Assembly (NCBI GenBank): GCA_028282325.1
Contig: JANQID010000139.1
Location: 1 to 39,441, forward strand
Direction: 5' to 3'
Origin: Chloroflexaceae bacterium
GTDB lineage: Bacteria; Chloroflexota; Chloroflexia; Chloroflexales; Chloroflexaceae
Length of the DNA stretch: 39,441 bases
Of this stretch, positions 586 to 39,441 are shown piece by piece. Below the pieces are notes generated by a model. The model did no database searches. It was not told where the DNA came from and worked only from the letters and a program-made list of their open reading frames with translations. The position numbers and the translations under genes are program-made. How positions within the stretch are numbered: the stretch's first letter is position 1; every line of letters begins with the position of its first letter.

Positions 586-722
586 CCTTCGCCGCTGTGA
601 GCGGTCTGGTTATCTGATCACGATGGCTGTGCGGCGGCGCTTCCGGCGCTCTTCACCAGGGAGATTGCCGGGAGCGCCTGAAGTGTTTCCTGAAACATAT
701 TGCGACAAGGAGGTCATAACAT

Positions 723-2705
723 ATGGCGGACGCTGCCGAGGGAAAGCTGCTGTGGGAACCAACCAAGGAGTTTCAGACCCAGAGCAATATGTATGCCTAT
801 ATGCGCTGGCTGGCCGAGCGCAAAGGCCTGCAATTTGTAACCTATGCCGAGCTCTGGAAGTGGTCGGTTGAGCACAGCGCCGATTTTTGGGCGACTATCT
901 GGGAATTTTACAACGTCAAAGCATCGCGCGATTATACGCAGGCGCTAACCGGTTCGGAAATGCCGGGAATGCGCTGGTTCGAGGGCACCGAGTTGAATTA
1001 TGCGGAACATGTTTTTCGCCATGCCGCGTCTGATCATCCGGCGGTGCTATTCCAGTCTGAACGCCAGCCGCTTGCTGAACTCTCGTGGGGCGAGTTGCGC
1101 CGACAGGTTGCGGCGGTTGCCGCAGCGTTGCGCGCAATGGGCGTCGAGCGCGGCGACCGCGTCGTTTCGTATATGCCCAACATTCCTCAGTCGCTGGTTG
1201 CGTTTCTGGCCGTTGCCAGCATCGGTGCGATCTGGTCCAGTTGCTCGCCCGACTTCGGCAGTCCCAGCGTCATTGATCGCTTTAGCCAGATTGAGCCAAA
1301 AGTGCTGTTTGCCGTCGACGGCTATCAGTATGGCGGCAAGGCCTTCGATCGCCGCGCCGTCGTGGCCGAGTTGCAAGCCGCATTGCCAACCTTGCAGCGT
1401 ACGGTGTTCGTTCCCTACCTTGATCGCGCCGCACAGCCCGATGGCCTGTCCAATGTGATGCTGTGGGACGCGGCCCTGGCTCACACGGGTGAGTTGATGT
1501 TCGCGCAGGTTCCGTTTGACCATCCGCTTTGGGTGCTGTATTCGTCGGGGACGACCGGCCTGCCCAAGCCGATTGTCCAGAGTCAGGGCGGCGTCCTGAT
1601 CGAGCATCTCAAGGCGATTGGATTGCACTTTGACGTCAAGCCGGGCGACCGCTTCTTCTGGTTTACGACCACCGGCTGGATGATGTGGAATATGCTGATC
1701 GGTTCGCTATTGCTGGGCGGGACGGCGCTGATGTATGATGGCAGCCCCGGTTGGCCCGATATGAACCGGCTCTGGCAATTCGCCGAACAAGCCGGGATGG
1801 CCTTCTTCGGAACCAGCGCCGGTTATCTCACCGCTTGTATGAAGGCCGAACTTGAACCGGGAACGACCTTTGATCTCAGCAAGTTGAAAGCGATCGGTTC
1901 AACCGGTTCGCCGCTGCCGCCGGAAGGTTTCGATTGGGTCTATGACCGCGTCAAGCGCGATCTCTGGCTGGTGTCGGTCAGCGGCGGCACGGATGTCTGC
2001 TCCGGCTTTGTGTCGGGCTGCCCGCTGCTGCCGGTCTACTCCGGCGAAATCCAGTGCGTCTGTCTGGGCGTGTATGCACAAGCTTTCGATGTCGATGGCA
2101 ACGCGGTCACGGGAGTGATGGGCGAACTGGTAATCACCGAGCCGATGCCGTCGATGCCGATCTACTTCTGGAATGATCCGAATAACGAACGCTATCGCGC
2201 GAGTTACTTCGAGATGTATCCCGGCAAATGGCGGCATGGCGACTGGGTGGTAATTTCGGATCGCGGCAGCGTGGTGGTTTACGGGCGCTCCGATTCGACG
2301 ATCAACCGTATGGGTGTGCGTATGGGCACCAGCGAGATCTATCGCGTGGTCGAGAGCATCCCTGAAGTGATCGACAGCCTGGTGATCGATCTCGAAGGTT
2401 TGGGTGGCGCAGCCTATATGCCGCTGTTTGTCGCGCTCAAAGACGGCGTGACACTCGATGAAGCGTTGGCAAAGCGAATCAAGACGCTGATTCGCGATGC
2501 GTTGTCGCCGCGCCACGTACCCGATGACATCTTTGTGATCCCCGAAGTGCCGATGACATTGAGCGGTAAAAAGCTTGAAGTGCCGGTGAAGAAGATTCTG
2601 GCGGGTGTGCCGGTTGTGAAGGCGGCCAATCCCGACTCGTTGCGCAACCCGTATATGCTGGATTACTTTGCGGATCTGGCCGGTCAACTGCCGAAGAAGC
2701 AGTGA
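723..2705 (+). CDS. aacS: acetoacetyl-CoA synthetase (acetoacetate--CoA ligase)
   Basis: The 660-residue protein belongs to the ANL adenylate-forming superfamily and activates acetoacetate to acetoacetyl-CoA with ATP and CoA in the cytosol, so ketone bodies or storage-polymer breakdown products can be used. Visible motifs are the P-loop-like YSSGTTGLPKPIVQ (~residues 271-284), TTGWMMWN (~316), the hinge region GDWVVISDRGSVVVYGRSD, and the C-terminal catalytic lysine context SGKKLEVPVKK (~residues 615-625). The N-terminal LWEPTKEF and the segment PMPSMPIYFWNDP separate acetoacetyl-CoA synthetases from acetyl-CoA synthetases, and the length fits the family. The ATG follows AAGGAGGTCATAACAT, a strong ribosome binding site. 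The 137-nt gap after the GerW-like gene makes an independent transcript possible. Confidence 0.93.
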   Translation: MADAAEGKLLWEPTKEFQTQSNMYAYMRWLAERKGLQFVTYAELWKWSVEHSADFWATIWEFYNVKASRDYTQALTGSEMPGMRWFEGTELNYAEHVFRHAASDHPAVLFQSERQPLAELSWGELRRQVAAVAAALRAMGVERGDRVVSYMPNIPQSLVAFLAVASIGAIWSSCSPDFGSPSVIDRFSQIEPKVLFAVDGYQYGGKAFDRRAVVAELQAALPTLQRTVFVPYLDRAAQPDGLSNVMLWDAALAHTGELMFAQVPFDHPLWVLYSSGTTGLPKPIVQSQGGVLIEHLKAIGLHFDVKPGDRFFWFTTTGWMMWNMLIGSLLLGGTALMYDGSPGWPDMNRLWQFAEQAGMAFFGTSAGYLTACMKAELEPGTTFDLSKLKAIGSTGSPLPPEGFDWVYDRVKRDLWLVSVSGGTDVCSGFVSGCPLLPVYSGEIQCVCLGVYAQAFDVDGNAVTGVMGELVITEPMPSMPIYFWNDPNNERYRASYFEMYPGKWRHGDWVVISDRGSVVVYGRSDSTINRMGVRMGTSEIYRVVESIPEVIDSLVIDLEGLGGAAYMPLFVALKDGVTLDEALAKRIKTLIRDALSPRHVPDDIFVIPEVPMTLSGKKLEVPVKKILAGVPVVKAANPDSLRNPYMLDYFADLAGQLPKKQ

Positions 2706-2954
2706 GCAGAGGCGCCGGGGGTCAGCGTGTACACCCATTTCCCTTATCCCGACGATCCGGCGACGCCAGGCAGTTTTGGTATGCGCCAACTCTCGTCATC
2801 GTCGTTGACGGCGTATGCGATCTATCGCTGGCTGATCGATCACCGGGATGATCTGGCGGTTCCGCTGGTCAGCTGTCGATTGTTGCTCTCGCCAGCATCG
2901 ATCGAGAAAACGGTCGAACTCCACCGCTTGATGTCGATGCTAACTAGCGTATGC
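2706..2954. other. intergenic stretch with a weak forward ORF
   Basis: This gap lies between the converging aacS and plsC. A GTG-started frame at 2727 reads about 75 plausible residues (YPDDPATPGSF...YRWLIDHRDDL...) before running antisense through the 3' end of plsC. It has no convincing ribosome binding site and no recognisable family. It may be a gene fragment or chance. No terminator hairpin with a T tract was found here. Confidence 0.3.
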
Positions 2955-3608
2955 TCATTTAACCTGGCTCAGGCGAAGCACCTCATCCCGCAACTGGTTT
3001 GCAACCGTTTGCCAGGTCGCGCGATTTTGCAAATCGGCTTTCAGGTTGCGGAGGGGCGCGCCGAAACGCACCTTCACCGTGCGGGGACGTGGCACAGCAG
3101 CGCCTTTGGGTAAGACGCGGGTGCTGCCCTCGACCCAGGCCGGAATGACAGGAATGTCGGGAAACTCGGCGATCAACCGGCCAACACCGCTGCGAAATGG
3201 CCCGACGCGCCCGTCGCGGCTGCGGGTGCCCTCGGGGTAAAGCACGATGCCATAGCCTTCGCGGAGAGCGCGAACGACATGGCGCAGCGGATTGGTTCGG
3301 CTCCGCATGTTGCGGTTGACCGGAACGACGTTAAAGAGGATTCGGGCAACGAACTGGCGAATACCGCGATCAAAAAAGTAGTCTTGCGCCGCCGCTGCGA
3401 CCACGCTTGATCGTCGTTTGGGCGGCATAGCGGTGAAGAGAACCGCCGTGTCGGCATGGCTCGAATGGTTTGAGATTAAAATGAAAGCGCCTTCCTTTGG
3501 GATATTCTCTACCCCTTCAACGCGAAGACGGCAATAGTAGCGAACGAAGGTTGCAAAAAACGCTGGAGCGATGCGAGCGAATGGATGACGGTTTGTATAC
3601 AGGCTCAT
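2955..3608 (-). CDS. plsC: 1-acyl-sn-glycerol-3-phosphate acyltransferase
   Basis: This LPLAT-family enzyme transfers an acyl chain to lysophosphatidate to make phosphatidate in membrane lipid synthesis. The H-x4-D catalytic motif is seen in NHSSHADTAVL (~residues 46-56), the glycerol-phosphate binding motif in YPEGTRSRDG (~residues 122-131) and the fourth family block in VIPAWVEGS. An ATG lies two codons further upstream (3614), but GGAG is placed six bases before the ATG at 3608, which is the preferred start and gives 217 residues, normal for PlsC. The gene stands alone and converges on aacS. A -10-like TATTAT lies upstream in the reverse direction near 3650. Confidence 0.9.
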   Translation of the reverse strand: MSLYTNRHPFARIAPAFFATFVRYYCRLRVEGVENIPKEGAFILISNHSSHADTAVLFTAMPPKRRSSVVAAAAQDYFFDRGIRQFVARILFNVVPVNRNMRSRTNPLRHVVRALREGYGIVLYPEGTRSRDGRVGPFRSGVGRLIAEFPDIPVIPAWVEGSTRVLPKGAAVPRPRTVKVRFGAPLRNLKADLQNRATWQTVANQLRDEVLRLSQVK

Positions 3609-3716
3609 ATCCATCTCCGTTGACGTACGGTCAGGAAAACCGAACTATAATAGCATATTCTATGCGCGTCTGATTTTTTGATCGGGCAATTGCTGTGGAT
3701 CTCTGGTTAGCAGGTT

Positions 3717-3725
3717 TGGTATGAT
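3717..3725 (+). promoter_or_regulatory. possible extended -10 promoter for the repeat protein
   Basis: TGG followed by TATGAT (3720-3725) matches an extended -10 element 55 nt before the start codon of the following gene. No good -35 hexamer is seen at the normal distance. Confidence 0.35.
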
Positions 3726-3779
3726 GTGTTCGCATACTATGACATTCAACAACCTTGAATGAGGAAGGAGAATATCGCG

Positions 3780-5657
3780 TTGACAGCCATAATGCAAAAG
3801 ACTCCGTGGAAACTCGTCGGCTGGCTGACGCTTATCACCTTGCTGGGAACGATGTTCCTTGCTGTTCGTCCGGTGAGCGCCGCCAGCGGCACGGTTGTGC
3901 CGCCGCAAGGCCAAACTGGTACGCGCTTTCATTTTACCGCTACCGGCTTCGAACCGGGCGAACGGGTAGATTCGTGGGTGACTGCGCCGGATAGTTCGAC
4001 CAGTCCCCGCTACCCTTCAGTATACGCCGACAGCGCCGGTATGGCGATCTGGTCTTGGGATGCTCCCGCCGGCGTCTTGCTGGGCCAGTGGACGATGGCC
4101 GCGCGGGGTATTCGTTCGGATGTTCGCGTATCCATTCCCTTTGAGATTGTCGCCTCCGATCCGTTGAACGTCCCCGCCAACGTCAATCCGACGAGCGGCG
4201 CGCCCGGCGCGACGTTTACGTTTACTGCGTCGGGTTTCAAGCCCGACGAGCGGGTGGCGCCCTGGCTTATTCAACCTGATGGCGAGAGCCGCGAGTTGGT
4301 AGAAGGTGAATTGACCTGGACCTTTGCCGATGAGAATGGCGATTTCACCTGGGTCTGGAACTCTCCGTCCGACGCGCCGGGCGGAAATTGGAAATCGGTC
4401 GCGCGCGGCATCGAAAGCGGGCTGGAAATTGTGATCGAGTTTACCGTTGCGGCGCCGCCCGCCGCGCCGCCCGAACGGAGCGTCTGGCCGGCGAGTGGCG
4501 GAGCGGGTACGACGTTCGCATTCACGGCGGCCGGTTTCGACCCCGGCGAGCAGGTCGGCACGTGGTTAAATGATCCGAACGGCAATCGTCTTGACGCTAC
4601 GCCCTGGCTGATTGCCGACGATAAAGGGAGCGTCGCCTGGAATTGGACCGTTCCCGAAAATGTTCTTGGCGGCGTCTGGCAATCGGTCGCCAAGGGCCTC
4701 AATAGCCGAGTTGAAGTCATCATCACGTTTGAGGTGATCGGCCCCAACGCGATTCCGACCTCGCCGCCGCCATCAAACAGCGTCAATCCGACGAGCGGTG
4801 CGCCCGGCGCGACGTTCTCATTCGCCGCCGAGGGGTTCAAACCGGGCGAAGATGTGTTCTACTGGCCGCTGACGCCGGAGGGCGTTCCAGTTGCCGATAA
4901 GTTCACCGAATTCACCGTTACGGCGAGCCCCGAAGGCCGGGCCGAGTGGAGTTGGACGGCTCCCGCCGATGCGATGTTTGGGCAGTGGACGATGGCGGCG
5001 CGCGGTGAGACCACTCGTTTTGAAGTCCAGATTACGTTTACCATTACCGCCCCCGGCCCGGAAGACCCCTTCATTGGCGTGGTTCCCGATGTGGGTGATC
5101 CGGGAACGACATTCACCTTCCTGGCCAGGGAATTTAATCCTGAGGAGCCGGTTGATGTCTGGACCGACGGCCCCAACGGCGAGATTATCGCGCTCACCCG
5201 CACCGACGAGTTGAAAGCCGATCGGTTTGGCAGTGCGCGCTGGACCTGGGTTGTGCCGGACGATGCCGCCGCCGGTACGTGGCGCATTGTAGCCAGGGGA
5301 CGCGACAGCGGCGAGACTCGATTCGTTGACCTGCGCGTTGTCCGTGATGCGCCGCTCCTTGAAGCGGCCCCGCTCTATACCATCAGCCCGGCGAGCGGCG
5401 CGCCTGGCACGACGTTCACCTTTACCGCCGGCGGTTTCAAGGTGGACGAGTTTGTCGGCTACTGGCTGAATGCGCCGGATCGGAGCGTTGTGCGGGTTGA
5501 TCAGGAAATCCGTGCTGATAGTAACGGTCAGGTTACCTGGACATGGACCGCGCCTCTCGATGCCCAGCGCGGAGGTTGGCAAATGGTGGTGCGTAGTTCG
5601 CAGAATGACGACGTGATTAACGACGTTCAATACATTATCGATTTCCGCATCGAATAA
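3780..5657 (+). CDS. exported protein of six ~100-residue beta-type repeats
   Basis: The protein has an N-terminal signal or anchor (basic QKTPWK, hydrophobic LVGWLTLITLLGTMFLAV, then VSAAS as a probable signal peptidase site) followed only by six tandem repeats. Each repeat opens with a block like NPTSGAPGATFTFTASGFKPDE, has a W-L-x-P-D/N-G stretch in the middle, and closes with WTAPADAxxGxWxMVARG. The pattern fits Ig-like or IPT-like beta sandwiches of cell-surface proteins, but no named domain can be assigned. An ATG lies at 3759, but AAGGAG (3765-3770) sits nine bases before the in-frame TTG at 3780, giving 625 residues. There is no LPxTG or C-terminal anchor, so it is secreted or held by its N-terminal helix. 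A strong terminator follows, making the gene monocistronic. A role in envelope or adhesion is a guess. Confidence 0.8.
   Translation: MTAIMQKTPWKLVGWLTLITLLGTMFLAVRPVSAASGTVVPPQGQTGTRFHFTATGFEPGERVDSWVTAPDSSTSPRYPSVYADSAGMAIWSWDAPAGVLLGQWTMAARGIRSDVRVSIPFEIVASDPLNVPANVNPTSGAPGATFTFTASGFKPDERVAPWLIQPDGESRELVEGELTWTFADENGDFTWVWNSPSDAPGGNWKSVARGIESGLEIVIEFTVAAPPAAPPERSVWPASGGAGTTFAFTAAGFDPGEQVGTWLNDPNGNRLDATPWLIADDKGSVAWNWTVPENVLGGVWQSVAKGLNSRVEVIITFEVIGPNAIPTSPPPSNSVNPTSGAPGATFSFAAEGFKPGEDVFYWPLTPEGVPVADKFTEFTVTASPEGRAEWSWTAPADAMFGQWTMAARGETTRFEVQITFTITAPGPEDPFIGVVPDVGDPGTTFTFLAREFNPEEPVDVWTDGPNGEIIALTRTDELKADRFGSARWTWVVPDDAAAGTWRIVARGRDSGETRFVDLRVVRDAPLLEAAPLYTISPASGAPGTTFTFTAGGFKVDEFVGYWLNAPDRSVVRVDQEIRADSNGQVTWTWTAPLDAQRGGWQMVVRSSQNDDVINDVQYIIDFRIE
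3894..5655 (+). repeat. six in-phase intragenic tandem repeats of 288-303 bp
   Basis: The repeat-opening codon falls at 3894, 4182, 4482, 4782, 5079 and 5382, giving unit lengths of 288, 300, 300, 297 and 303 bp. At DNA level the 36-bp blocks starting at 4181 and 4781 differ at one position, and the block at 5381 is close to both, so the repeats arose by duplication and have exchanged sequence. Confidence 0.85.
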
Positions 5658-5719
5658 GCGCATAGGCCAGAAAAGCGGTATCTGCGGCGTAATCTTTATA
5701 TCCGACAGCGGTTGATTAT

Positions 5720-5776
5720 GCCGGGGATGGAGCGCAGGAATGATGAATCTTCCGCTCCATCCCCGGCGCTTTTTTA
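5720..5776 (+). terminator. rho-independent terminator
   Basis: A perfect 15-bp stem (GCCGGGGATGGAGCG, 5720-5734, with CGCTCCATCCCCGGC, 5753-5767) encloses an 18-nt loop and is followed directly by GCTTTTTTAT. It ends the transcript of the repeat protein. Confidence 0.93.
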
Positions 5777-5819
5777 TGCGATTGTCATTCCGCTTCGCCG
5801 TCAATTTGCTAGCATGCGC

Positions 5820-5825
5820 TATAAT
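5820..5825 (+). promoter_or_regulatory. possible -10 element for sbcC
   Basis: A consensus TATAAT lies 60 nt before the sbcC start, just after the upstream terminator. No clear -35 hexamer is visible 16-18 nt upstream. Confidence 0.4.
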
Positions 5826-5884
5826 GGCGTGCGTGGCGTGAGCGGCTTGAGCCGCTATGTTTGCCGATCACCATTCCCAAAACT

Positions 5885-8800
5885 ATGATTCCCCAAGAAC
5901 TTATTCTGCGCAATTTTATGTGCTATCGCGAGGATCTGCCTCCGCTTAAGCTGGACGGACTGCACGTCGCCTGTCTCTCCGGCGAGAACGGCGCGGGCAA
6001 GTCGGCGCTGCTTGAGGCGATCATCTGGGCGCTGTGGGGCAAGGCGCGCCTGAAAGACGATGACCTGATCACGCTGGGCGAGACGGAGATGCAGGTCGAG
6101 ATGATTTTTCAGCTTAATGGCCAGTGCTACCGCGTGATTCGCCGCCGTCAGCGCGCCAGGAGCGGCTCGCGCAGCAGCGGCAAGAGCTCGCTTGACTTGC
6201 AAGTGCGGAACGAGGACAACTGGCGCTCGCTTGGCGAGAGCACCTTGGCCGAGACGGAGCGTGTGATCGAGCAACTACTGCGTATGCGCTATGAGACGTT
6301 CATCAACGCCTCGTTTCTGTTGCAGGGCCGCGCCGACGAATTTACGCGCAAGACGGCCGGCGAGCGCAAGCAAGTGCTGGCCGATATTCTCGATCTGCAA
6401 GAGTATGCGCTGCTCGAAGAGCGCGCTCGGCAGCGCGCGAAGCGGCTCGATGGCGAGATCAAAGGCATCGACGGATTGATCGCCCATTTGCAGCAACAGG
6501 CCGATCAACTGGAAATCTACGAGCAGTTTGTGCGCGATAGCGAGGAGCGCGTCGCTGCATTATCCGAGAAGTTGTCCAACGCCGAGGTTGAACAGCGCGA
6601 GACCGACGACCGAGTGCGCGATCTGGAGACCAAAGCCGATCAGCACAAGGCATTGCGCCGGCAACTGGCGACGCTTCACGACCGACGCCGCGAGCAAGAA
6701 CAGGAGATTGCCGCGCTCCAGGCGCGCATCGGGGAGTCTGAAGCGCTCCTTCAGCGTAGCGACGCGATCGCGGAAGGTATGCAAGTATTGCGGGCTGCAC
6801 GCGCCGAGCAAGAGCGATTGGAGGGTCTGCGCCCGCGTTATGAGGAACTGCGCGAGCAACGCGCCCAGTTGCAAGATGTGCTGCGGGAGGAGTTGCGCCG
6901 ACTTCGCAGCGATCGCGATCGCTGGTTGAACGAGCAGCAACGCCTGACGGCGCAGGTTGAGCGCCGTCCGCAGGTTGAGGGCGAGCAGACCGCGCTTGAG
7001 CGCCGGATGGAGGCGCTCACGGCGTTGCATAACGAGGCGCGCACCCTCCGCGAACGGATCGCCGGGCTTGATGAACGCATTAGTCGCATCCAGGGCCTGT
7101 TGTTGCAACGAAGCGAGCTGAACAACACGATTGAGCGACAGCGGAGCAGCCTGGCAGCCGTTCGAGACGAGCAGCAGCGCGGTGTCAAGCGGTTGGAACG
7201 CCAGCTTCGTGATGAGCCGCGCTGGCGGGCCGATCTGGAGGCGGCGCTGGCTCAACAGCAAGCGGTTGAAGAACAGTCCGTCCGCCTGGAAGCGCTGCGT
7301 GAGCGCGAGCGCGCCGCGACAACGCGCATTGGCGAGCTGCGTGCGTTGCGGGCGCAAGAGCAACGCCAGATCGAGCAAATCGAGCGCGACCGCGCGCGCC
7401 TGGCCAAGTCGCCGGAGACGACCTGCCCATTGTGTCACAGCGACCTGGGTCACGATGGCATTGCGCACGTGCTGGCGCATTACGACTCGGACAGCGCGGA
7501 TCTCAGCGCGCGTCAGCAGAGCTATGATCGCGAGATCCGCGATCTTGGCGCAACACTCGACGCCATCAACGACCAGATGCGCGATGTCGGGGCGCAGCTT
7601 GATCAGGCGCGTCAACAGGCGGCTCGTGTTGAGATGCTGCGCCAGCAGCTTGCACAGGCTGACGAGTGGCGTCGTGAATTGGAGCAGGCCCGGATCCGGC
7701 GAGACAGCGCAGTTCGCCAACTCGACGCCCAGGATTTCGCCCCCGACGAACGCGCTGCGCTGCGCAAGCTTGACGCCGATCTGGCCGATCTTGGTCTGTC
7801 CGCGCCGGGCGATACGCAGCAAGCTTCAGGCGTCGAAGCCCTTGACCTTGAACGAACCGAATGCAAGCGGCAGTTGGCCAGCCACGAGCGTCAGCTTGAA
7901 GAACGCGCCGGGCTTGAAGCGCAGGTCGCCAGACTCCAACACGAGCTTGAAGAAATAACCCGCGCTGCTGCCGAACTGCCGGCGACCAATCGGCAACTTG
8001 CCGCGTTGGACGATCAAATAGAGCGCGGCGACTTCGCCCACGAAACGCGCGTAGCGGGGCGTGCGATCGATGCCGATCTGGCGGCTCTGGGCTATAGCGT
8101 TGAAGTGCACAACGCAGCCAGCGAAGAGGTGCGAAGGCTGGCGCACTGGATTGACGAAGAACGTCGCTTGAACGAAGCTCGTATTCGCCTGGAAGGTGAT
8201 CAACAGCTTCTCCGGCAGGCGAATGAGATTCGCGATCAGCGCAACGCCGAGATCGAAAGCATAACCGGCGAGAGTGCGGTGCTTGAGCAGGCGTTGCAGG
8301 CTCTGCCGAAGGAGCGCCAGCGCGCCCAGGCGTGCGCCCAGGTCGTCGCCGAACAACGGCGCGAGTTGGATGCCGCGACGCGCGACCGCGAGTACAAACG
8401 CAGCTTGCGCGACAATGCCCGGCAATCCGCCGAACAACTGGTTCAGGAACAAGAACGTCGCGCTGCGCTGGTCGAACGTCTGGGGGTGTTTCAGGAGCTG
8501 ACCGAGGCGTTCGGCAAAAAAGGCGTGCAGGCGATGCTGATAGAGATGGCCATACCGCAGATCGAAGATGAAGCCAATCGCTTGCTCGCACGGATGACCA
8601 GCAACCAGATGCATGTCGCGTTTGAAATGCAACGCGCGACGAAACGCGGTGATACGGTCGAGACCCTGGAGATCAACATTGCCGATGCGCTGGGCACGCG
8701 CATCTACGACGCCTTCAGCGGCGGCGAGGCGATGCGGGTCAACTTCGCAATTCGGATCGCCCTCTCGCGATTGCTGGCTCGTCGCGCCGGCGCCAGCCTG

Positions 8801-31343: not shown

Positions 31344-32453
<1,110 letters not shown>

Positions 32454-32474
32454 ATGCGTCCTCCGTCGTCTAGA

Positions 32475-33602
32475 TCAACCGTACCGTCCGACCGCTGCTT
32501 GTTCCGCTCGATGCTTGCCCTCCGGCGTAAGCGTCCAGGCATCGACCCCAACCCGTTGCGCCCAACCGCGGGTTTCGAGCGTCTCCAGGCTGCGTTGAAC
32601 GCCGCCGCGACGGGCGTCCATAACCCGAAGCACCTCGATCGAATGACCGTGTTTAAGCGACTCATGCTGCTGCGACAGGGCATAGAGGTCGCCGAGGACG
32701 GCTTCGAGTTTCAGACGCCGTCGGTTACGCTGGCGCCGTAGCCAGTTCCACACGATGCCGCGATTCGGCGCAAATAGCATCGAGAAGAGCACGATAGCGC
32801 TGATGAACAGCACGATGACCGGCCCGGTAGACAACCCGCGCCCCATAGCGCTGATCAGCGCGCCGGCAATGCCGGCCAGGCCCCCGAACGCGCCGGCAAG
32901 AGCTACCATCAGACCGAGACGGTTGGTCCATTGGCGCGCCGCCGCCGCGGGCGCCACAATCATCGCGCTCATCAACACGACGCCGACAGTCTGCAAGCCG
33001 ACGACGATGGCAATAACGACGAGCGATGTGAGCAAAATGTCGAGTAGGCGGATCGGAAAACCCTGACTGGCGCCAAATTCGGGGTCGAAGCTGAGCAGTT
33101 TGAACTCTTTCCAGAACAGCAACATCAGTGCCAACGCCACTGCGCCAAGACCGGCCATTGTAATGACATCGCGTTCGACCAGGGTGGCGGCTTGCCCAAA
33201 CAAAAAGCTATCGAGACCGGCCTGGGCTGCGTTGGGCAGCTTCTGGATGAAGGTCAGCAGCACCATGCCGAAGCCGAAGAAGACGGCAAGCACGAATCCC
33301 AGGGCGGTATCCTCTTTGATGCGCGTCATACGAACGATGCTCATCATCACCAGCGTTGCTGTCCATCCGGCCAGGGCCGCGCCCAGCAAGAGGATGAGCG
33401 GGGTTTTGCTGCCGGTCAGCAAGAAGGCAAGCGCGATGCCGGGCAGCGCCGCGTGTGACATTGCGTCGCCCAGCAGCGCCTGGCGTCGCAGCACGGCATA
33501 GCAGCCCAGCGTGCCGCTGATAATGCCCAGCGTCGCGGCGCCAAGTGCAACCGTGCGCAGCGTGTAGTCGGTGAACAGTTCTTGCAGAATATGCCAATCC
33601 AT
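32475..33602 (-). CDS. metal ABC transporter permease with C-terminal winged helix (first permease)
   Basis: A second ABC-3 permease of the same operon, TroC/MntB-like. Membrane helices fill residues ~10-280 with the blocks LLGDAMSHAALPGIALAFLL (~43-62) and VGVVLMSAMIVAPAAAA (~210-226). The tail (~295-375) has a helical segment and a winged-helix-like GVQRSLETLETRGWAQRVGV followed by WTLTPEGKHRA. The frame is open to 33629, but CGGAGG lies before the ATG at 33602, giving 375 residues. Two different permeases in one operon imply a heterodimeric channel, as in TroCD/MtsCD. Confidence 0.88.
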   Translation of the reverse strand: MDWHILQELFTDYTLRTVALGAATLGIISGTLGCYAVLRRQALLGDAMSHAALPGIALAFLLTGSKTPLILLLGAALAGWTATLVMMSIVRMTRIKEDTALGFVLAVFFGFGMVLLTFIQKLPNAAQAGLDSFLFGQAATLVERDVITMAGLGAVALALMLLFWKEFKLLSFDPEFGASQGFPIRLLDILLTSLVVIAIVVGLQTVGVVLMSAMIVAPAAAARQWTNRLGLMVALAGAFGGLAGIAGALISAMGRGLSTGPVIVLFISAIVLFSMLFAPNRGIVWNWLRRQRNRRRLKLEAVLGDLYALSQQHESLKHGHSIEVLRVMDARRGGVQRSLETLETRGWAQRVGVDAWTLTPEGKHRAEQAAVGRYG

Positions 33603-33629
33603 AAAAACCTCCGCCGGAGACTGCCGCAA

Positions 33630-34397
33630 TCAACTTGCCAGCGTTTCAGGCGCGCTTCCGTTCGCGCGACTCAGGAAGGAGACCCGACCACCGTAAGCCA
33701 GGCGTAGATTTTCCTCCGTAAATACGTCATTGACGGGGCCGCTGGCAATCTTGCGCACATTCAAGAGCGTCACCCAGTCGAAATATTCCGGCACAGTCTG
33801 CAAGTCGTGATGCACGACGATAACCGTCTTGCCGGCGGCGCGCAGTTCTTGCAGCAGCGTCACGATGGCGCGCTCAGTCGTGGCGTCGACGCCTTGAAAC
33901 GGCTCGTCCATAAAATAGATCTGGGCGTCTTGCACGAGCGCGCGGGCGAGAAACACTCGCTGCTGTTGTCCACCGGAGAGCTGGCTGATCTGGCGATCGG
34001 CGAAATCGCGCATCTTGACTTTGTCCAGCGCCGCGAACGCCAGTTCGCGCTCGCGGCGACCGGGACGGCGTATCCACCCAAGCGCGCCGTAACGACCCAT
34101 CATCACCACATCGAGCACGCTGGAGGGAAAATCCCAATCAACGCTGCCGCGCTGGGGCACGTATCCGACCAGGCGACGCTGCTCGGCATATGGTTTGCCG
34201 TAGATCAGCGTCTGCCCAGCTGCGGCACGCACGAGACCGAGCATTGCCTTGATCAGCGTCGTTTTTCCGGCGCCGTTTGGCCCGACAATGGCCATCAATA
34301 GGCCGCTCGGCACGTTGAGATCGATATCCCATAACACCGGCTTGTCGCGGTAAGCGACCGTCAGATCGGTGACTTCAATGGATCTGTCGCTATACAT
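33630..34397 (-). CDS. metal ABC transporter ATP-binding protein
   Basis: The ATPase subunit (255 residues) of the metal importer, TroB/ZnuC/MntB-like. Walker [15 protein letters not shown] (~residues 38-51), Q-loop [20 protein letters not shown] (~77-96, with the RGSVDWDFP typical of manganese/zinc-type ATPases), signature [15 protein letters not shown] (~140-154), Walker [13 protein letters not shown] (~160-171) and the H-loop VHHD (~197-200) are all present. The frame is open to 34445, but GGAG nine nt before the ATG at 34397 supports that start. 27 nt separate it from the first permease. Confidence 0.93.
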
Positions 34398-34441
34398 TAG
34401 GTATGACTCCCTATTTGCTATCAAATGATGATACACACGCC

Positions 34442-34528
34442 GCATGTCACCCTGAGCGAAGCGAAGGGGAAGGGTCTCGGTGTTATTGGAACCTGAGATT
34501 CTTCGCTGCGCTCAGAATGACCGCATGC
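34442..34528. repeat. imperfect inverted repeat element inside the metal operon
   Basis: GCATGTCACCCTGAGCGAAG (from 34442) and its continuation CGAAG are mirrored by CTTCGCTGCGCTCAGAATGA then CCGCATGC (34501-34528). The motif GTCAYYCTGAGCGAAGCGAAG is known as a dispersed hairpin repeat in many bacterial genomes. It occupies most of the 161-nt gap between binding-protein and ATPase genes and could form a long hairpin in the transcript. Confidence 0.7.
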
Positions 34529-34558
34529 GGTGCCTCCAAATATTGTTTGGTAGCTTCG

Positions 34559-35581
34559 TTAGCGTTGCTGGGCTGTCGTCGAGGTCATCGCACCGACGAT
34601 CGTATCGATGTTGTGGCGCACCATCCCGATGTAGGTTCCCTCTATTGTGCCTGGCTCGCCCATTGCGTCCGAAAAGAGCTCGCCGCCGATCTGCACATTG
34701 TGTCCCTGCGCCTGCACAGCTGACTGAACTGCCTCGACATTGCGCACCGGGATCGACGATTCGATGAAGATAGCTTGGATCTGACGTTCGGCGATAAAGT
34801 CGGCCAGATCCTGCACATCGGCGGTGCTGGCTTCGGTTTCGGTGCTGATGCCCTGCAAGCCGCGCACCTCGAAGCCATAGGCGCGACCAAAGTAGTTGAA
34901 CGCATCGTGCGCTGTGATCAAAACGCGTTGCTCCTCGGGAACGGTCGCCGCCTGCTCCTGCACATACGTGTGCAGCGCTTCCAGTTCCTGTAAATAGGCT
35001 GCGGCATTCGCCTGGTAGAGGTCGGCGCTGCCCGGATCGAGCGCGGACAGAGTGTCGCGCACATTCTCAACCGCTTGCATCCAGAGTGTCACGTCGAACC
35101 AGATGTGGGGATCGTAGGCGCCCTCGAAATCTGGGGGTGCAAGCAGCACGCTGCGATCAATGCCGTCCGTCACCGCAACGGCTGTGTTGCCCAGATCGTT
35201 CATCCGCTCCAAGACGCCGCTCAGTCCCGCTTCGAGATGCAATCCGTTGTAGAAGATAATATCGGCCTGTTGGAGTTTGCTGACATCACTTTCGCTGGCC
35301 TTGTAGAGGTGCGGATCAACCCCAGGCCCCATCAGTCCCTCAACCTCCGCTCGGTCGCCGCCGACCTGCTGCACGATATCGGTGATCATGCCAACTGTGG
35401 CGACAACGCGGATGTTGCGATTCGCCAGATCAGGGCTCGGTTGGATCGCCGCTGCAGCGGGTTGGGCGTTTGGTTCAGCAGCAGGCGTATCTGTGGTAGT
35501 GCCGCAGGCTGCGAGGATGACGAGAAGAAGGCTTGCGATGAATGCAATGTTCCATAGTCTGGCGCCAGATTGCTTGATCAT
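34559..35581 (-). CDS. metal ABC transporter substrate-binding lipoprotein
   Basis: The 340-residue lipoprotein (signal LLLVILAAC with lipobox Cys at ~residue 26) is a cluster A-I binding protein like TroA/ZnuA/PsaA. Likely metal ligands are His in GVDPHLYKAS (~residue 87), His in LITAHDAFNYFG (~222), Glu in IFIESSIP (~270) and Asp in GELFSDAMG (~302). A His-His-Glu-Asp set is usual for Mn2+/Fe2+ binding, while ZnuA proteins have a His-rich loop, absent here. The longest frame starts at 35617, but AGGAG six nt before the ATG at 35581 decides the start. It is the first gene of the four-gene importer. Confidence 0.92.
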   Translation of the reverse strand: MIKQSGARLWNIAFIASLLLVILAACGTTTDTPAAEPNAQPAAAAIQPSPDLANRNIRVVATVGMITDIVQQVGGDRAEVEGLMGPGVDPHLYKASESDVSKLQQADIIFYNGLHLEAGLSGVLERMNDLGNTAVAVTDGIDRSVLLAPPDFEGAYDPHIWFDVTLWMQAVENVRDTLSALDPGSADLYQANAAAYLQELEALHTYVQEQAATVPEEQRVLITAHDAFNYFGRAYGFEVRGLQGISTETEASTADVQDLADFIAERQIQAIFIESSIPVRNVEAVQSAVQAQGHNVQIGGELFSDAMGEPGTIEGTYIGMVRHNIDTIVGAMTSTTAQQR

Positions 35582-35654
35582 TGGTACTCCTAATATGTTT
35601 TGCTTCAACATTGACAACGCTCAGGGAAAGTCTTAGCTATCCCCACCTGTATTT

Positions 35655-35697
35655 TTTAGGCTATCCTAAATTTAACATAGCCAATGGCTCGTGTCAA
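35655..35697 (-). promoter_or_regulatory. promoter with DtxR/MntR-like box for the metal importer operon
   Basis: On the reverse strand TTGACA (35697-35692), a 17-nt spacer and TAAATT (35674-35669) form a promoter. The palindrome TTTAGG-N4-CCTAAA (35655-35670) overlaps the -10 and the start point. The half-site and spacing match boxes of DtxR/MntR/IdeR-type metalloregulators, so repression by Mn2+ or Fe2+ is inferred. Confidence 0.75.
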
Positions 35698-35792
35698 GAC
35701 AAAGAGCGCATTTTGGTCATGGATTCTGATAGAAGGCGCTCTCTTGCCCATCAACGTTCGGGGCGGTTATTGTGTGAAGGACTTGAGGCTGT

Positions 35793-36212
35793 CTACTCGT
35801 GCGGATCCTGGAGATGGAGATGATCGTCGTGTCCTTGGCGATGGCCATGATGATGGTGATGATCTTGGCGATGCTGACCGGGCGTGACGGTAATCAGCCT
35901 GCCGCCGAGATATGCTTGCACTGCGGCATCGGGATCCTTTTCGGCAGTGATCAACCCCGTGATCGATTGTTCGATCAGCCCCTGCGCCAGCCCCGGACCC
36001 ATACCGCCGCTAATCAACGCTTCGATGCCGCTTAGCGGGTGTTCGACGCTTACTCCATGACCGATTTCGTGCAGGGTTTGATCTGGCGCCAATTCGACCA
36101 GGCGTTTATCGCTAATGGCATTATCGGCGATGTCATAGACCCAGAACGTGCGGCAGCGTCCGGCATGGCCGGTAATGGTGCGTTGATTTTGACTCGTTAC
36201 AGCAATTTTCAT
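35793..36212 (-). CDS. NifX/NafY-fold (dinitrogenase cofactor family) protein with His-rich tail
   Basis: Residues ~1-105 match the NifB/NifX/VnfX family (PF02579-type): MKIAVTSQNQRTITGHAGRC, then FWVYDI, and GIEALISGGMGPGLAQGL, a fold that binds metal-sulfur cofactors. No nitrogenase genes are visible, so, as for stand-alone relatives, the cargo is unknown. The C-terminal tail (~112-139) has about a dozen His (DHHHHHGHRQGHDDHLHLQD), suggesting divalent metal binding. The frame is open to 36338, but GGAG nine nt before ATG 36212 fixes the start (139 residues). It lies between the protease gene and the metal importer, whose own promoter starts about 95 nt downstream. Confidence 0.82.
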   Translation of the reverse strand: MKIAVTSQNQRTITGHAGRCRTFWVYDIADNAISDKRLVELAPDQTLHEIGHGVSVEHPLSGIEALISGGMGPGLAQGLIEQSITGLITAEKDPDAAVQAYLGGRLITVTPGQHRQDHHHHHGHRQGHDDHLHLQDPHE

Positions 36213-36259
36213 AAACGACATCTCCACAGTATAAACTATGCGCGAATGCACAATGGTTT

Positions 36260-39106
36260 TCAGTCTCTTGCAAGCCGTAATCGCACTGCCGGGTCGCCCA
36301 GCAGTGCGTAGTTTCGGGCGTCGTTGCGCGCGACCCACAGCGGCGCAAGCATCGCCGGATCGAGATGTTTGCCAAATGCGCCTTCCTCGATGCGATCGGC
36401 GAGGGTTGCGGCGACGGCGCCCTGGCGCATATTGAACTGATCCGTCGCGAAGCCTAGCCGCTTGCCGGCCAGAATGCGCGCTAATACATCGTGGAACGCT
36501 TGCACTTGCGCCGGGGCGCCTGCCGCACTGAATGAGTAGTTCCAGGCGCGATCAACATGGCCAAGGACAGCCAGCGCACCGCGGGTCAGCAGGTGTTGGG
36601 GCAGTTGGGCCACGAATGCGTACGGCGCGATCAACCGTCGGGGCGCGTCGGCCTGGAAGGCGAATTGATCCTCGTGGGGTGATCCGGCGCCGTAACAGGC
36701 GAAACAGACCATCACCATCCCATCGACGCGGGTCGGGTCGGGCAGATCCTCGGCGGCGAACCAGTGCTCGCGTTTGATCGTGCCGAATCCGGTCCAATCC
36801 TGGCAGAGCAACGCGCCCTGGTGATCGAGGAGACGCGGATCGGCGCTGGGCAGACCGATGCCGTGGGTGGCGCTGAACAACAGCGCGGGCGGGCCGTCGT
36901 TGTCGCCGCGCAGCACGCCGGTCAGGTTGGCGTGGGTGGCGTCGCCCGCCAGCAGCATGCGTTGCGCAAAACCGGCTGCTGTCGCTACGCCGGGTTGCTG
37001 ATGTTTGCCTTGCACCAGCGGCAATACGAGCTCGGCGGCGCTGCTCTGCGTCGCCGAGTCGCCATCGTGGCGCGTCCCGAAAAACACCGCATGTTTGCGA
37101 ATAGGGGCAGCGGATTTCTCGTAGGCGATCACCTGCTCAGCATAGGCTGTGTACGCTTCCAGGCGGTGCTGGCCATCCGAGGCGGTGAAACAGAGGCGGC
37201 CCACGCCCCAGAAGAGATCCAACTCGTATTGGAACACAAACGGCAGCGCAGTCGAATCGCCGTCGGTGACTGGCCCGGATCGCCCGACCAGCAGCAAATA
37301 GAATGGCACGCCCTGCAACGGCTCAACGGGGCCGTGGGCTACGCCGTGACGCTCCAGCCACGTGCTGCCGGTCTCGCCGTGCCGGTAGAGTAGCACCGGC
37401 ATGCCGCTAAACAACGGGGCATTGACATCGCTGACATGGCGCGCGAGCCAGTCGCCGCAGCGCTCGCCGGGGCGAACATCCAGCGACGGTATGCGCAATC
37501 CCTGCTCGCGAACGCGATGTTCGATCAGCGGGCTGAGCGCTTTGATCAACGCAGCGTCATCGTCGGCGTTGACAACGATCGCCCAGCGGCTTTCACGCAA
37601 GTCGTCCTCGTTAATGCCAAACCGTAGGCCGAGGTGTTGCTTCTTCGCCTGGCGAACTTTTTCTTTGTGCAGCAGATTCAGTTCGTCGGGATCGGCGTTG
37701 TCAATGGCCATACGACTGGCGGTTGGAACATTGATCTGAGCCAGCGGGAGACCGGTTACGCCATCAATCCCGTTCACAAAGACGCTGACGCCATCGGTGT
37801 TGGCTTCGACTTCGGCATATGGCAGCGCTGTCGCAATCGGGCCGATCGGTAGTTCCGACGCCGACGTTGGCATCGATGCGCGTTCTGCCGGCGCCGGGGT
37901 TGGCGCGACGGGAGCGCTTGATGCTAGTTGCTCTGGCTGAGCCTGGGCCAGCGTCGCCAGTTGCGCAACGAGCGCATCGAGCCGCTGCTGAATAGCGCGC
38001 GCTTCTGCGTAGAGCGCCTGGATGTCAGGTTGCGGGGCGTTGAACGATTGTGGCTGCGTCGTTGTTTCCGGGCGCGGCTCAGCAGCAACGCCGTTGATGA
38101 CAAACGCTGCCAGATTCTGCTCGGACACCAGCCGATAGGGGATATGCGCATAGCCGGGGCCGTCGGGATTCTCACTGCCCCAATCGGTACCCCAACTGTT
38201 GCGCACGATAAAATAGCCGCCTCCAGGCGCATCGGGATCGTCGCGATAACCGACGGCTGCCATCGCGTGCCCCCCCAGGCTCGCTTCACCCGGCAGCGGT
38301 TGGCGCACGCGCCCCAACGTGCGCGATTGCCAGGCGCTGGTCCAGTGCTCGTTGATCGGCAGGCCGAACAGCACCGCCTGACCTTTAGCTAGTGCGGCCT
38401 GAATGCGATAGAGGTTTTTGGACGGGAGAGCGGTGAAACTGGCGATCCGTCGCTGCCGGGCTTCATTCGGCGCGGCGGCGGGCGGTGGCCCCTGCCCGGC
38501 GTTGGCGTTGTCCGGCTGTGGATTATAGGGCCAGGTCGGCTCGGCGCAGATGCCAGCCTCGGTCAGTGCTTTCATCGCCACATCGGGGCGGGTGCCGACA
38601 TCTCCGGGGATACCGTCGCGTTCTTTACACGCCCAGTAGAGAAATTGCTCGGAGAGGTCGGTTGTATCGCCGCTCGCCAGTTGATAGAGCGCTGCCAGGG
38701 TAAATGCCACGCACGTATTGCGCTTACCCTGATGCATCGGCGGGGTAAGGGACGCGGAGAGGTCGATCTCGGGCGGCAGCAATTCGGTTGGCAGATCAAA
38801 GGATACCTCTTCAACCACTTCCATACCCTCGAAGATCGCGCCGGTTCCGACCGCCAGCTCGGTCAGCACATCGAACGAAAAAGCCGGCGGAATGACCAGA
38901 TCGGCAGCCTTGATCAGCGCGTCGATGCGATCCTGGGTGATGCCGAGTGCATGCGCCAATGCACTTGTGCCATTGCCAAACTGGCGGTTGCTTGATCGGG
39001 CCGTGGTGACAAATTCTTCGGCGCTGGCGATCCAAAAGGCGGCGAGCTTCTGGCGAATATCGGCGTCAAACTCGGGGATGGTCTCTAGCAACGTGAGGTT
39101 GGGCAT
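36260..39106 (-). CDS. dual protease: papain-like C1 domain fused to a clan CD (C25/CHAT-like) domain
   Basis: Numbering is from the in-frame ATG at 39121 (953 residues); GGAG supports the ATG five codons later. Residues ~7-78 form a helical, HhH-like N-terminal domain. Residues ~105-345 form a papain-like domain with HQGKRNTCVAF (oxyanion Gln131, nucleophile Cys137), GGHAMAAVGY (His285) and FIVRNSWGTDWG (Asn308). A Pro/Ala linker (~346-435) and an unassigned domain (~435-690) follow. The last ~210 residues contain LLFSATHGIG (His753), MVMVCFACYGAG (Cys806 or Cys809) and a terminal YALLGDPAVRL, the pattern of clan CD peptidases such as C25 or CHAT. No signal peptide is seen, so it is probably cytosolic. 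It starts 2 nt after the nucleoside phosphorylase stop. Confidence 0.82.
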   Translation of the reverse strand: MPNLTLLETIPEFDADIRQKLAAFWIASAEEFVTTARSSNRQFGNGTSALAHALGITQDRIDALIKAADLVIPPAFSFDVLTELAVGTGAIFEGMEVVEEVSFDLPTELLPPEIDLSASLTPPMHQGKRNTCVAFTLAALYQLASGDTTDLSEQFLYWACKERDGIPGDVGTRPDVAMKALTEAGICAEPTWPYNPQPDNANAGQGPPPAAAPNEARQRRIASFTALPSKNLYRIQAALAKGQAVLFGLPINEHWTSAWQSRTLGRVRQPLPGEASLGGHAMAAVGYRDDPDAPGGGYFIVRNSWGTDWGSENPDGPGYAHIPYRLVSEQNLAAFVINGVAAEPRPETTTQPQSFNAPQPDIQALYAEARAIQQRLDALVAQLATLAQAQPEQLASSAPVAPTPAPAERASMPTSASELPIGPIATALPYAEVEANTDGVSVFVNGIDGVTGLPLAQINVPTASRMAIDNADPDELNLLHKEKVRQAKKQHLGLRFGINEDDLRESRWAIVVNADDDAALIKALSPLIEHRVREQGLRIPSLDVRPGERCGDWLARHVSDVNAPLFSGMPVLLYRHGETGSTWLERHGVAHGPVEPLQGVPFYLLLVGRSGPVTDGDSTALPFVFQYELDLFWGVGRLCFTASDGQHRLEAYTAYAEQVIAYEKSAAPIRKHAVFFGTRHDGDSATQSSAAELVLPLVQGKHQQPGVATAAGFAQRMLLAGDATHANLTGVLRGDNDGPPALLFSATHGIGLPSADPRLLDHQGALLCQDWTGFGTIKREHWFAAEDLPDPTRVDGMVMVCFACYGAGSPHEDQFAFQADAPRRLIAPYAFVAQLPQHLLTRGALAVLGHVDRAWNYSFSAAGAPAQVQAFHDVLARILAGKRLGFATDQFNMRQGAVAATLADRIEEGAFGKHLDPAMLAPLWVARNDARNYALLGDPAVRLRLARD

Positions 39107-39108
39107 AC

Positions 39109-39441
39109 TCACGGACTCCATCTTTCCACAATGCCGTGGATCAGCGCGGCAAACTTTGGCCTGGCGGCGTCGCCCGCAGCAATGACCTCTTCATGATTGG
39201 CCGGTGGACTATCGGGCAGCGCCAGATTGGTGATCAACGAAAAACCCAGGACGCGCATTCCTGCGTGGCGGGCTACGATAATCTCCGGTGCGGTTGACAT
39301 ACCCACCGCATCCACTCCCAACCTTTGCAGCATGCGCAACTCGGCGGCGCTCTCGAAGTGCGGCCCGCTGAGCATGGCGTACACGCCCTCGCGGAGAACG
39401 ATTCCCTGGTCTCTGGCTACAGCGCGCGTCGTCGGAACCAG
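39109..39441 (-). CDS. purine nucleoside phosphorylase (partial)
   Basis: The C-terminal 110 residues run off the right edge of the window. The enzyme splits purine (deoxy)nucleosides with phosphate to base and (deoxy)ribose-1-phosphate. The PNP class signature is clear: [16 protein letters not shown], then [20 protein letters not shown] (Met/Glu-region of the purine site) and [23 protein letters not shown] with the base-binding Asn. This is the trimeric PunA/DeoD2 type rather than the hexameric DeoD. Its stop lies inside the possible extended start of the protease gene, so both are probably co-transcribed. Confidence 0.9.

Follow-up and report, generated by a model that had tools for sequence, protein, structure and literature searches.

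The window analyzed here is a contig of 39,441 nucleotides from a Chloroflexaceae bacterium. Near its end lies an open reading frame (ORF) of 953 codons, counted from the longest ATG, whose predicted product carries a papain-like (clan CA) and a gingipain-like (clan CD) protease in a single chain; we refer to it here as the dual protease. Its probable start is M6, at position 39106, where its relatives likewise begin. This codon lies two bases past the stop codon of a gene for purine nucleoside phosphorylase, and the two genes are probably cotranscribed. All residue numbers follow the 953-residue count from the ATG at 39121, whereas the coordinates of the initial annotation assumed the M6 start. 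The features are as follows.

36260-39121, minus strand: dual-protease ORF (C1/C25-like), longest-ATG version; M6 at 39106 is the probable start
38882-39100, minus strand: small helical N-terminal domain, residues ~8 to 80, family specific; also found as standalone genes upstream of relatives of the papain half
38093-38785, minus strand: papain-like domain (C1A, xylellain type), residues ~113 to 343, based on Pfam, PDB, fold, and conservation
38729-38731 (Q131), 38711-38713 (C137), 38267-38269 (H285), and 38198-38200 (N308), minus strand: papain catalytic codons
37802-38086, minus strand: variable linker, residues ~346 to 440; predicted helix with low pLDDT beyond it, dN/dS of 0.24 to 0.66
37121-37657, minus strand: residues ~489 to 667, the noncatalytic first lobe within the C25-like fold, based on fold alignments
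36263-37801, minus strand: whole C25-like (clan CD) protease, residues 441 to 953; model pLDDT of 91.8 and pTM of 0.93, Z of 23.8 against 1cvr
36863-36865 (H753) and 36695-36697 (C809), minus strand: clan CD catalytic codons; C806 (36704-36706) is not conserved
39109-39441, minus strand: 3' end of the purine nucleoside phosphorylase gene, directly upstream; the contig ends at 39441

The motifs listed in the initial annotation are all present, namely, Q131, C137, H285, N308, ATHG (H753), VCFAC (C806/C809), and YALLGDPAVRL (residues 938 to 948). The chain has nothing beyond the catalytic domain at its C terminus and ends with the LLGDPA signature. Elsewhere in the window, positions 31344-36233 (minus strand) hold a zinc uptake row made up of a FeMo-Co-type protein with a His-rich tail, ZnuA, an ABC ATPase, and two permeases of the ABC-3 type. 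The C-terminal part of one of these permeases (32475-33629) matches the archaeal domain HVO_A0261_N below the cut-off (E value of 3e-5).

Among 400 sampled genomes of the window's phylum, a homologue was found in 22 of the 23 genomes of the window's family and the papain half in 21 (own genome counted). The named relatives are all Chloroflexales, including metagenome-assembled genomes of Oscillochloris and Viridilinea, and within one Chloroflexales family (filamentous green bacteria) the dual-protease gene is near-core. At most loci the gene order is conserved as recO, bPH/SHOCT, purine nucleoside phosphorylase, and dual protease. None of the 25 relatives begins with a signal-peptide-like stretch as judged by eye, for which reason we place the protein probably in the cytosol.

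A complete papain-like Q/C/H/N set had been claimed for the N-terminal half, and Pfam, fold, and conservation all bear this out. Peptidase_C1 (PF00112) matches the dual protease with an E value of 3.2e-13 (50.7 bits against a gathering cut-off of 20.7), and the closest PDB sequence to this half is xylellain (E value of 3.9e-17). A whole-chain AlphaFold model, built from 25 sequences with a pLDDT of 68 and numbered from M6, served for the papain half alone; its residues 85 to 342 match xylellain (3ois) with a Z score of 25.4 and an rmsd of 2.4 over 238 aligned residues. Q131, C137, H285, and N308 are kept in 40 of 40 N-terminal relatives (partial ones added). The order of the Cys/His pair with the oxyanion Gln and the Asn, the Pfam score, and the papain fold place the domain in peptidase family C1A. 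It shares the fold and the Q/C/H/N set with xylellain but differs from it in carrying another N-terminal domain and in being fused to a second protease.

That N-terminal domain gave no confident family against Pfam and PDB profiles (best E values of 0.0079 and 0.00078, respectively, the latter with a designed protein), and calling it a putative helix-hairpin-helix (HhH) domain is a reading of the pattern only. Genes encoding it alone (112 to 152 residues) stand directly upstream of a papain-family gene at six loci (L045, L047, L048, L049, L050, and L051) and match it with E values of 1.6e-10 to 1.8e-7 (for example, 7648-8007 of L045). The standalone proteins could be adaptors or inhibitors, and in the dual protease the domain is probably an interaction or inhibitory module.

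The C-terminal half was modeled on its own (residues 440 to 953, 44 sequences), giving a pLDDT of 91.8 and a pTM of 0.93. The best fold match in VIA-align 2 was gingipain R (1cvr; Z score of 23.8, rmsd of 3.3, 310 residues), followed by gingipain K (4rbm; Z score of 21.9), the Craspase CHAT protease (15.4), and separase (14.8), while with plain Foldseek the top ranks went to separase and Craspase, at modest scores. The initial annotation had allowed for a fold that was not caspase or gingipain like, an outcome that did not occur. It had also set apart a domain of about 250 unassigned residues between the two proteases. Residues ~489 to 952 align to gingipain as one unit, and the alignments to gingipain, separase, and Csx29 begin at residues 47 to 73 of the C-terminal model, whereas those to the single-lobed metacaspase, MALT1, and legumain begin only at model residue ~229 (residue ~668). 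The supposed domain is therefore the noncatalytic first lobe of the gingipain-like fold, and a separate third domain at 435 to 690 was rejected.

The C25 likeness that had been read from the end of the chain is supported by the first rank of the gingipains and by profile-profile comparison with canonical C25 domains of the same phylum (probability of 96.6%). The unfiltered profile alignment sets H753, C809, and the LLGDPA end on the canonical C25 His, Cys, and end, with only the GRL-motif region being of high confidence by itself. The Pfam C25 model (PF01364) scores the dual protease at 16.4 bits (E value of 0.0056), under its 23-bit gathering score, and because of this we call the half C25-like rather than C25; some C25-like paralogues exceed the cut-off, at 23.1 to 33.9 bits. 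Neither CHAT (PF12770) nor caspase C14 (PF00656) matched in Pfam at E values up to 1, so that the likeness to CHAT proteases and caspases is at the fold level only, and NCBIfam gave no match for the dual protease. With the gingipains it shares the two-lobed caspase-like fold, a His and then a Cys after core strands, and an LLGDP-type C-terminal signature; it differs in being only 14% identical, in a His-Cys spacing of 56 residues, and in lacking, by eye, a start that resembles a signal peptide. Craspase CHAT (Csx29) and separase are likewise two-lobed clan CD proteases, but their TPR/CRISPR or securin control parts are absent here. The same genome also encodes, at another locus (L118, G000:C65), a canonical Pfam C25 protein (E value of 2.5e-93), and the C25-like branch is thus not the genome's only C25 relative.

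Half of the catalytic pair proposed from ATHG and VCFAC needed correction. Among relatives with the region present (partials added), H753 is invariant (35 of 35), as is C809 (33 of 33), and in the model each comes after the end of one core strand (model residues 308 to 312 and 364 to 368), as in clan CD; this conserved dyad and the two-lobed fold are features of peptidase C25. C806 was rejected as the nucleophile, being mostly Leu in the relatives, and C809 is the predicted clan CD nucleophile. The dyad is missing from a single relative in the wider set, encoded in L117, where both residues were lost together. This protein of 1,794 residues (2088-7469, minus strand) carries the degenerate C25-like domain and a C-terminal CHAT-like domain and adjoins a CHAT gene (685-2097, minus strand) on a contig that also has ParA, ParB-like, and DnaB genes.

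Over the 25 full-length relatives, all six catalytic residues (Q131, C137, H285, N308, H753, and C809) are invariant. Median dN/dS values in one genus were 0.038 for the papain part, 0.043 for the C25-like part, and 0.244 for the linker; in another genus they were 0.09, 0.10, and 0.66, respectively. Purifying selection thus acts equally on the two domains. The low dN/dS values and the invariant residues indicate that both active sites are under selection, and both are very likely active. The claim that one chain holds two unrelated, intact protease domains is thus supported, with a gingipain/caspase-like fold and an invariant H753 and C809 on the C-terminal side, so that neither finding named in the initial annotation as a refutation was obtained.

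The linker consists of one long predicted helix (residues ~367 to 393) and a Pro/Ala-rich stretch, with low pLDDT past the helix. Tandem copies without the papain domain retain the sequence from residue ~363 onward, and the linker helix therefore goes with the C25-like part. Such a long, variable linker between two conserved active sites is what an autoprocessing device might have, in which the C25-like protease would mainly cut its own chain to free and activate the papain domain, like C80 in MARTX-type proteins. Gingipain zymogens, too, undergo proteolytic processing (PMC4357240). However, an Arg or Lys occurs somewhere in residues 392 to 438 in only 17 of 25 relatives and is lacking in the other 8, so that gingipain-like specificity would not serve everywhere, and a universal Arg/Lys self-cleavage in the linker was not supported. 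Moreover, papain-less C25-like proteins with both His and Cys kept are common, and the paired but unfused genes described below require action in trans. We consider autoprocessing as the main function quite improbable.

In a maximum-likelihood tree, the fusion proteins and their papain-less derivatives form one clade with support of 100/100, and the papain/C25-like fusion arose once. Papain-less copies of three genomes (G246, G295, and G214) sit inside the fusion clade, which means that the papain domain was lost there. At L065 (1639-10995, minus strand), a full-length dual protease is followed by three tandem papain-less C25-like copies with His and Cys intact. Unfused C25-like proteins form a separate clade, nine of them from a second conserved gene row whose members are a response regulator, the C25-like gene, two genes of unknown function, SufE, a sensor kinase, and a second response regulator. 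The C25-like half thus exists alone, both in the papain-less copies and in the unfused clade, and can accordingly work without the papain domain.

Several other contexts of C25-like genes were observed. The paralogues of the two-component row (L072 to L079 and, in the own genome, L081 at G000:C140, 5437-11969) have a C-terminal domain homologous to the product of a gene of ~110 residues two genes downstream (hhalign, 97.1%, E value of 6e-11), and the two products are a possible homotypic adaptor pair judging by this homology. At L083 (5516-9180, plus strand), a C25-like domain and a carbon-nitrogen hydrolase form one fusion protein, and the gene directly before it weakly matches astacin-like metalloproteases. 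At L085 (4978-7634, minus strand), a C25-like gene is directly followed by a patatin-like phospholipase gene.

A profile of residues 6 to 350 recovered papain-half relatives in other phyla. The best-supported members of this papain family match with E values of <1e-100 and are set apart from ordinary xylellain-type papains (5e-47 and weaker), with G540 (3e-78) and G978 (3e-53) as outliers. The family is rare, being found in 3 of 294 genomes of the phylum of G405 and in 2 of 279 of that of G404. The survey of neighbors proposed in the initial annotation revealed that clan CD genes recur beside the family outside Chloroflexales. In an Anaerolineaceae locus (L043), a C25-like gene (5345-6814) is followed immediately by the papain-family gene (6913-8016). 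In G405 and G406, two same-strand genes for C14 caspases, their HG and DAC motifs intact, come after the papain-family gene, in G404 two C14 genes begin ~6 kb on from it, and in G407 a CHAT gene and a C14 gene lie ~3 to 5 kb away. The upstream neighbor in G402 is a CHAT-HEAT gene, separated by ~530 bp that contain repeats, and the two are therefore not clearly one operon. The caspases of G404, G405, and G406 are fused to FGE domains, and two kinase-FGE genes are among the neighbors in G401.

A C14 or CHAT gene thus lies within 8 kb of the papain-family gene at five of eight loci (G402 and G404 to G407) against 0.19 expected from the genome-wide C14 and CHAT counts (P = 1.7e-7; about 2e-4 with one of each related pair kept), a count that leaves out L043, G540, and G978. 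The other three counted genomes (G184, G401, and G403) have no C14 or CHAT gene nearby, and inspection revealed no such gene near the weaker hits in G540 and G978. The C-terminal extensions of the Verrucomicrobia and Phycisphaerae relatives (L047 to L051) had no Pfam match.

Because the papain family repeatedly adjoins clan CD protease genes in other phyla, the recurrent clan CA/clan CD pairing suggests that the two protease types are functionally coupled. The idea in the initial annotation that one protease could process or trigger the other would be one form of such coupling. Our favored explanation of the dual protease, to which we give about an even chance, is a two-protease switch with coupled, regulated proteolysis, probably in the cytosol. 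The small helical domain would precede the xylellain-type protease as a probable interaction or inhibitory module, and the long helix and flexible linker would tie this protease to a complete, two-lobed clan CD protease of C25-like type. Both activities would serve a common pathway, in which one of them probably controls or follows the other, and the trigger might be a signal or oligomerization, the latter through either the linker helix or the N-terminal domain. The fused protein would then be the Chloroflexales version of a pairing made elsewhere with separate neighboring genes. Several points count against coupling: the clustering of clan CD genes can have other causes, the sample is small, three of the eight counted loci show no C14 or CHAT neighbor, the CHAT gene of G402 is not clearly in one operon with the papain-family gene, and the C25-like half also exists without papain.

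The near-core distribution, the synteny with recO, the PH-domain protein gene, and the purine nucleoside phosphorylase gene, and the strong purifying selection would also suit constitutive intracellular turnover, with two endopeptidases of different specificity fused to degrade damaged or surplus proteins in the absence of any trigger or cascade. We regard this as unlikely, since the gene row has no chaperone or unfoldase partner and the papain family elsewhere adjoins caspase, kinase, and FGE-domain genes rather than turnover genes. Known clan CD relatives, moreover, are mostly specific, regulated enzymes, which again argues against bulk turnover.

The same neighbors point in another direction, that of an executioner in defense or programmed death that an infection or stress signal would turn on to degrade cell proteins, a role put forward in the initial annotation. 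C14-FGE, CHAT, and kinase-FGE genes, whose domain types are reported from putative conflict systems (PMC7159879 and PMC8195603), adjoin the papain relatives, and the degenerate C25-like/CHAT-like fusion of L117 stands beside a CHAT gene on its ParA/ParB/DnaB-bearing contig. Putative conflict systems of multicellular bacteria include caspase and FGE domains (PMC7159879 and PMC8195603), as do the surroundings of the papain-half relatives; however, those caspase/trypsin systems are centered on NTPases and named adaptor domains that are absent from the dual protease. Neither the chain nor the recO/bPH/PNP row has a STAND, MoxR, or NACHT NTPase or a named effector-associated domain, and the PADLOC models gave no match to the dual protease at E values up to 1. 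The gene is vertical, syntenic, and near-core with housekeeping neighbors, unlike a patchy defense gene, and appears to behave as a resident gene of its family. The defense-like context is found around relatives only; for these a defense role is possible, and for the dual protease itself it is quite unlikely.

More broadly, and tentatively, the switch could be one instance of a so far undescribed module found in several phyla that pairs a papain-family protease with a caspase-type one (C14-FGE, CHAT, or C25-like); the two would act in a regulated cascade of proteolysis in stress, cell death, or defense. The papain enzyme would carry the small N-terminal domain, often with a standalone copy next door, and the dual protease would be the fused, domesticated form.

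Each half of the protein is of a known fold class, the papain half within C1 and the C25-like half under the Pfam cut-off. MARTX proteins combine a C80 (clan CD) domain with other cysteine protease domains in one chain, and the concept as such is therefore not new; they are, however, secreted multieffector proteins in which C80 does the autoprocessing, and C80 is a clan CD family other than that of the dual protease. A literature search, mostly without subscription papers, returned no account of a C1/C25 fusion or of papain/clan CD gene pairing. The two papers on conflict systems mention C25 or gingipain in neither case and name papain once each, in other contexts (PMC7159879 and PMC8195603). 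On the basis of these comparisons, the family-wide, probably intracellular clan CA/clan CD fusion appears to be a new form, and the papain half, including the small domain at its N terminus, forms a distinct family, newly seen here, that adjoins clan CD genes elsewhere.

In eukaryotes, proteases of clan CA (cathepsins and papain) and clan CD (caspases and metacaspases) play central roles in cell death and regulated proteolysis. To our knowledge, the two are hardly known as hard-wired together in bacteria. The dual-protease set provides a reference for a branch of the gingipain fold that is divergent and probably intracellular, and a natural fusion that is intact across a whole family, together with the repeated gene pairing, makes bacterial cross-clan protease cascades directly testable.
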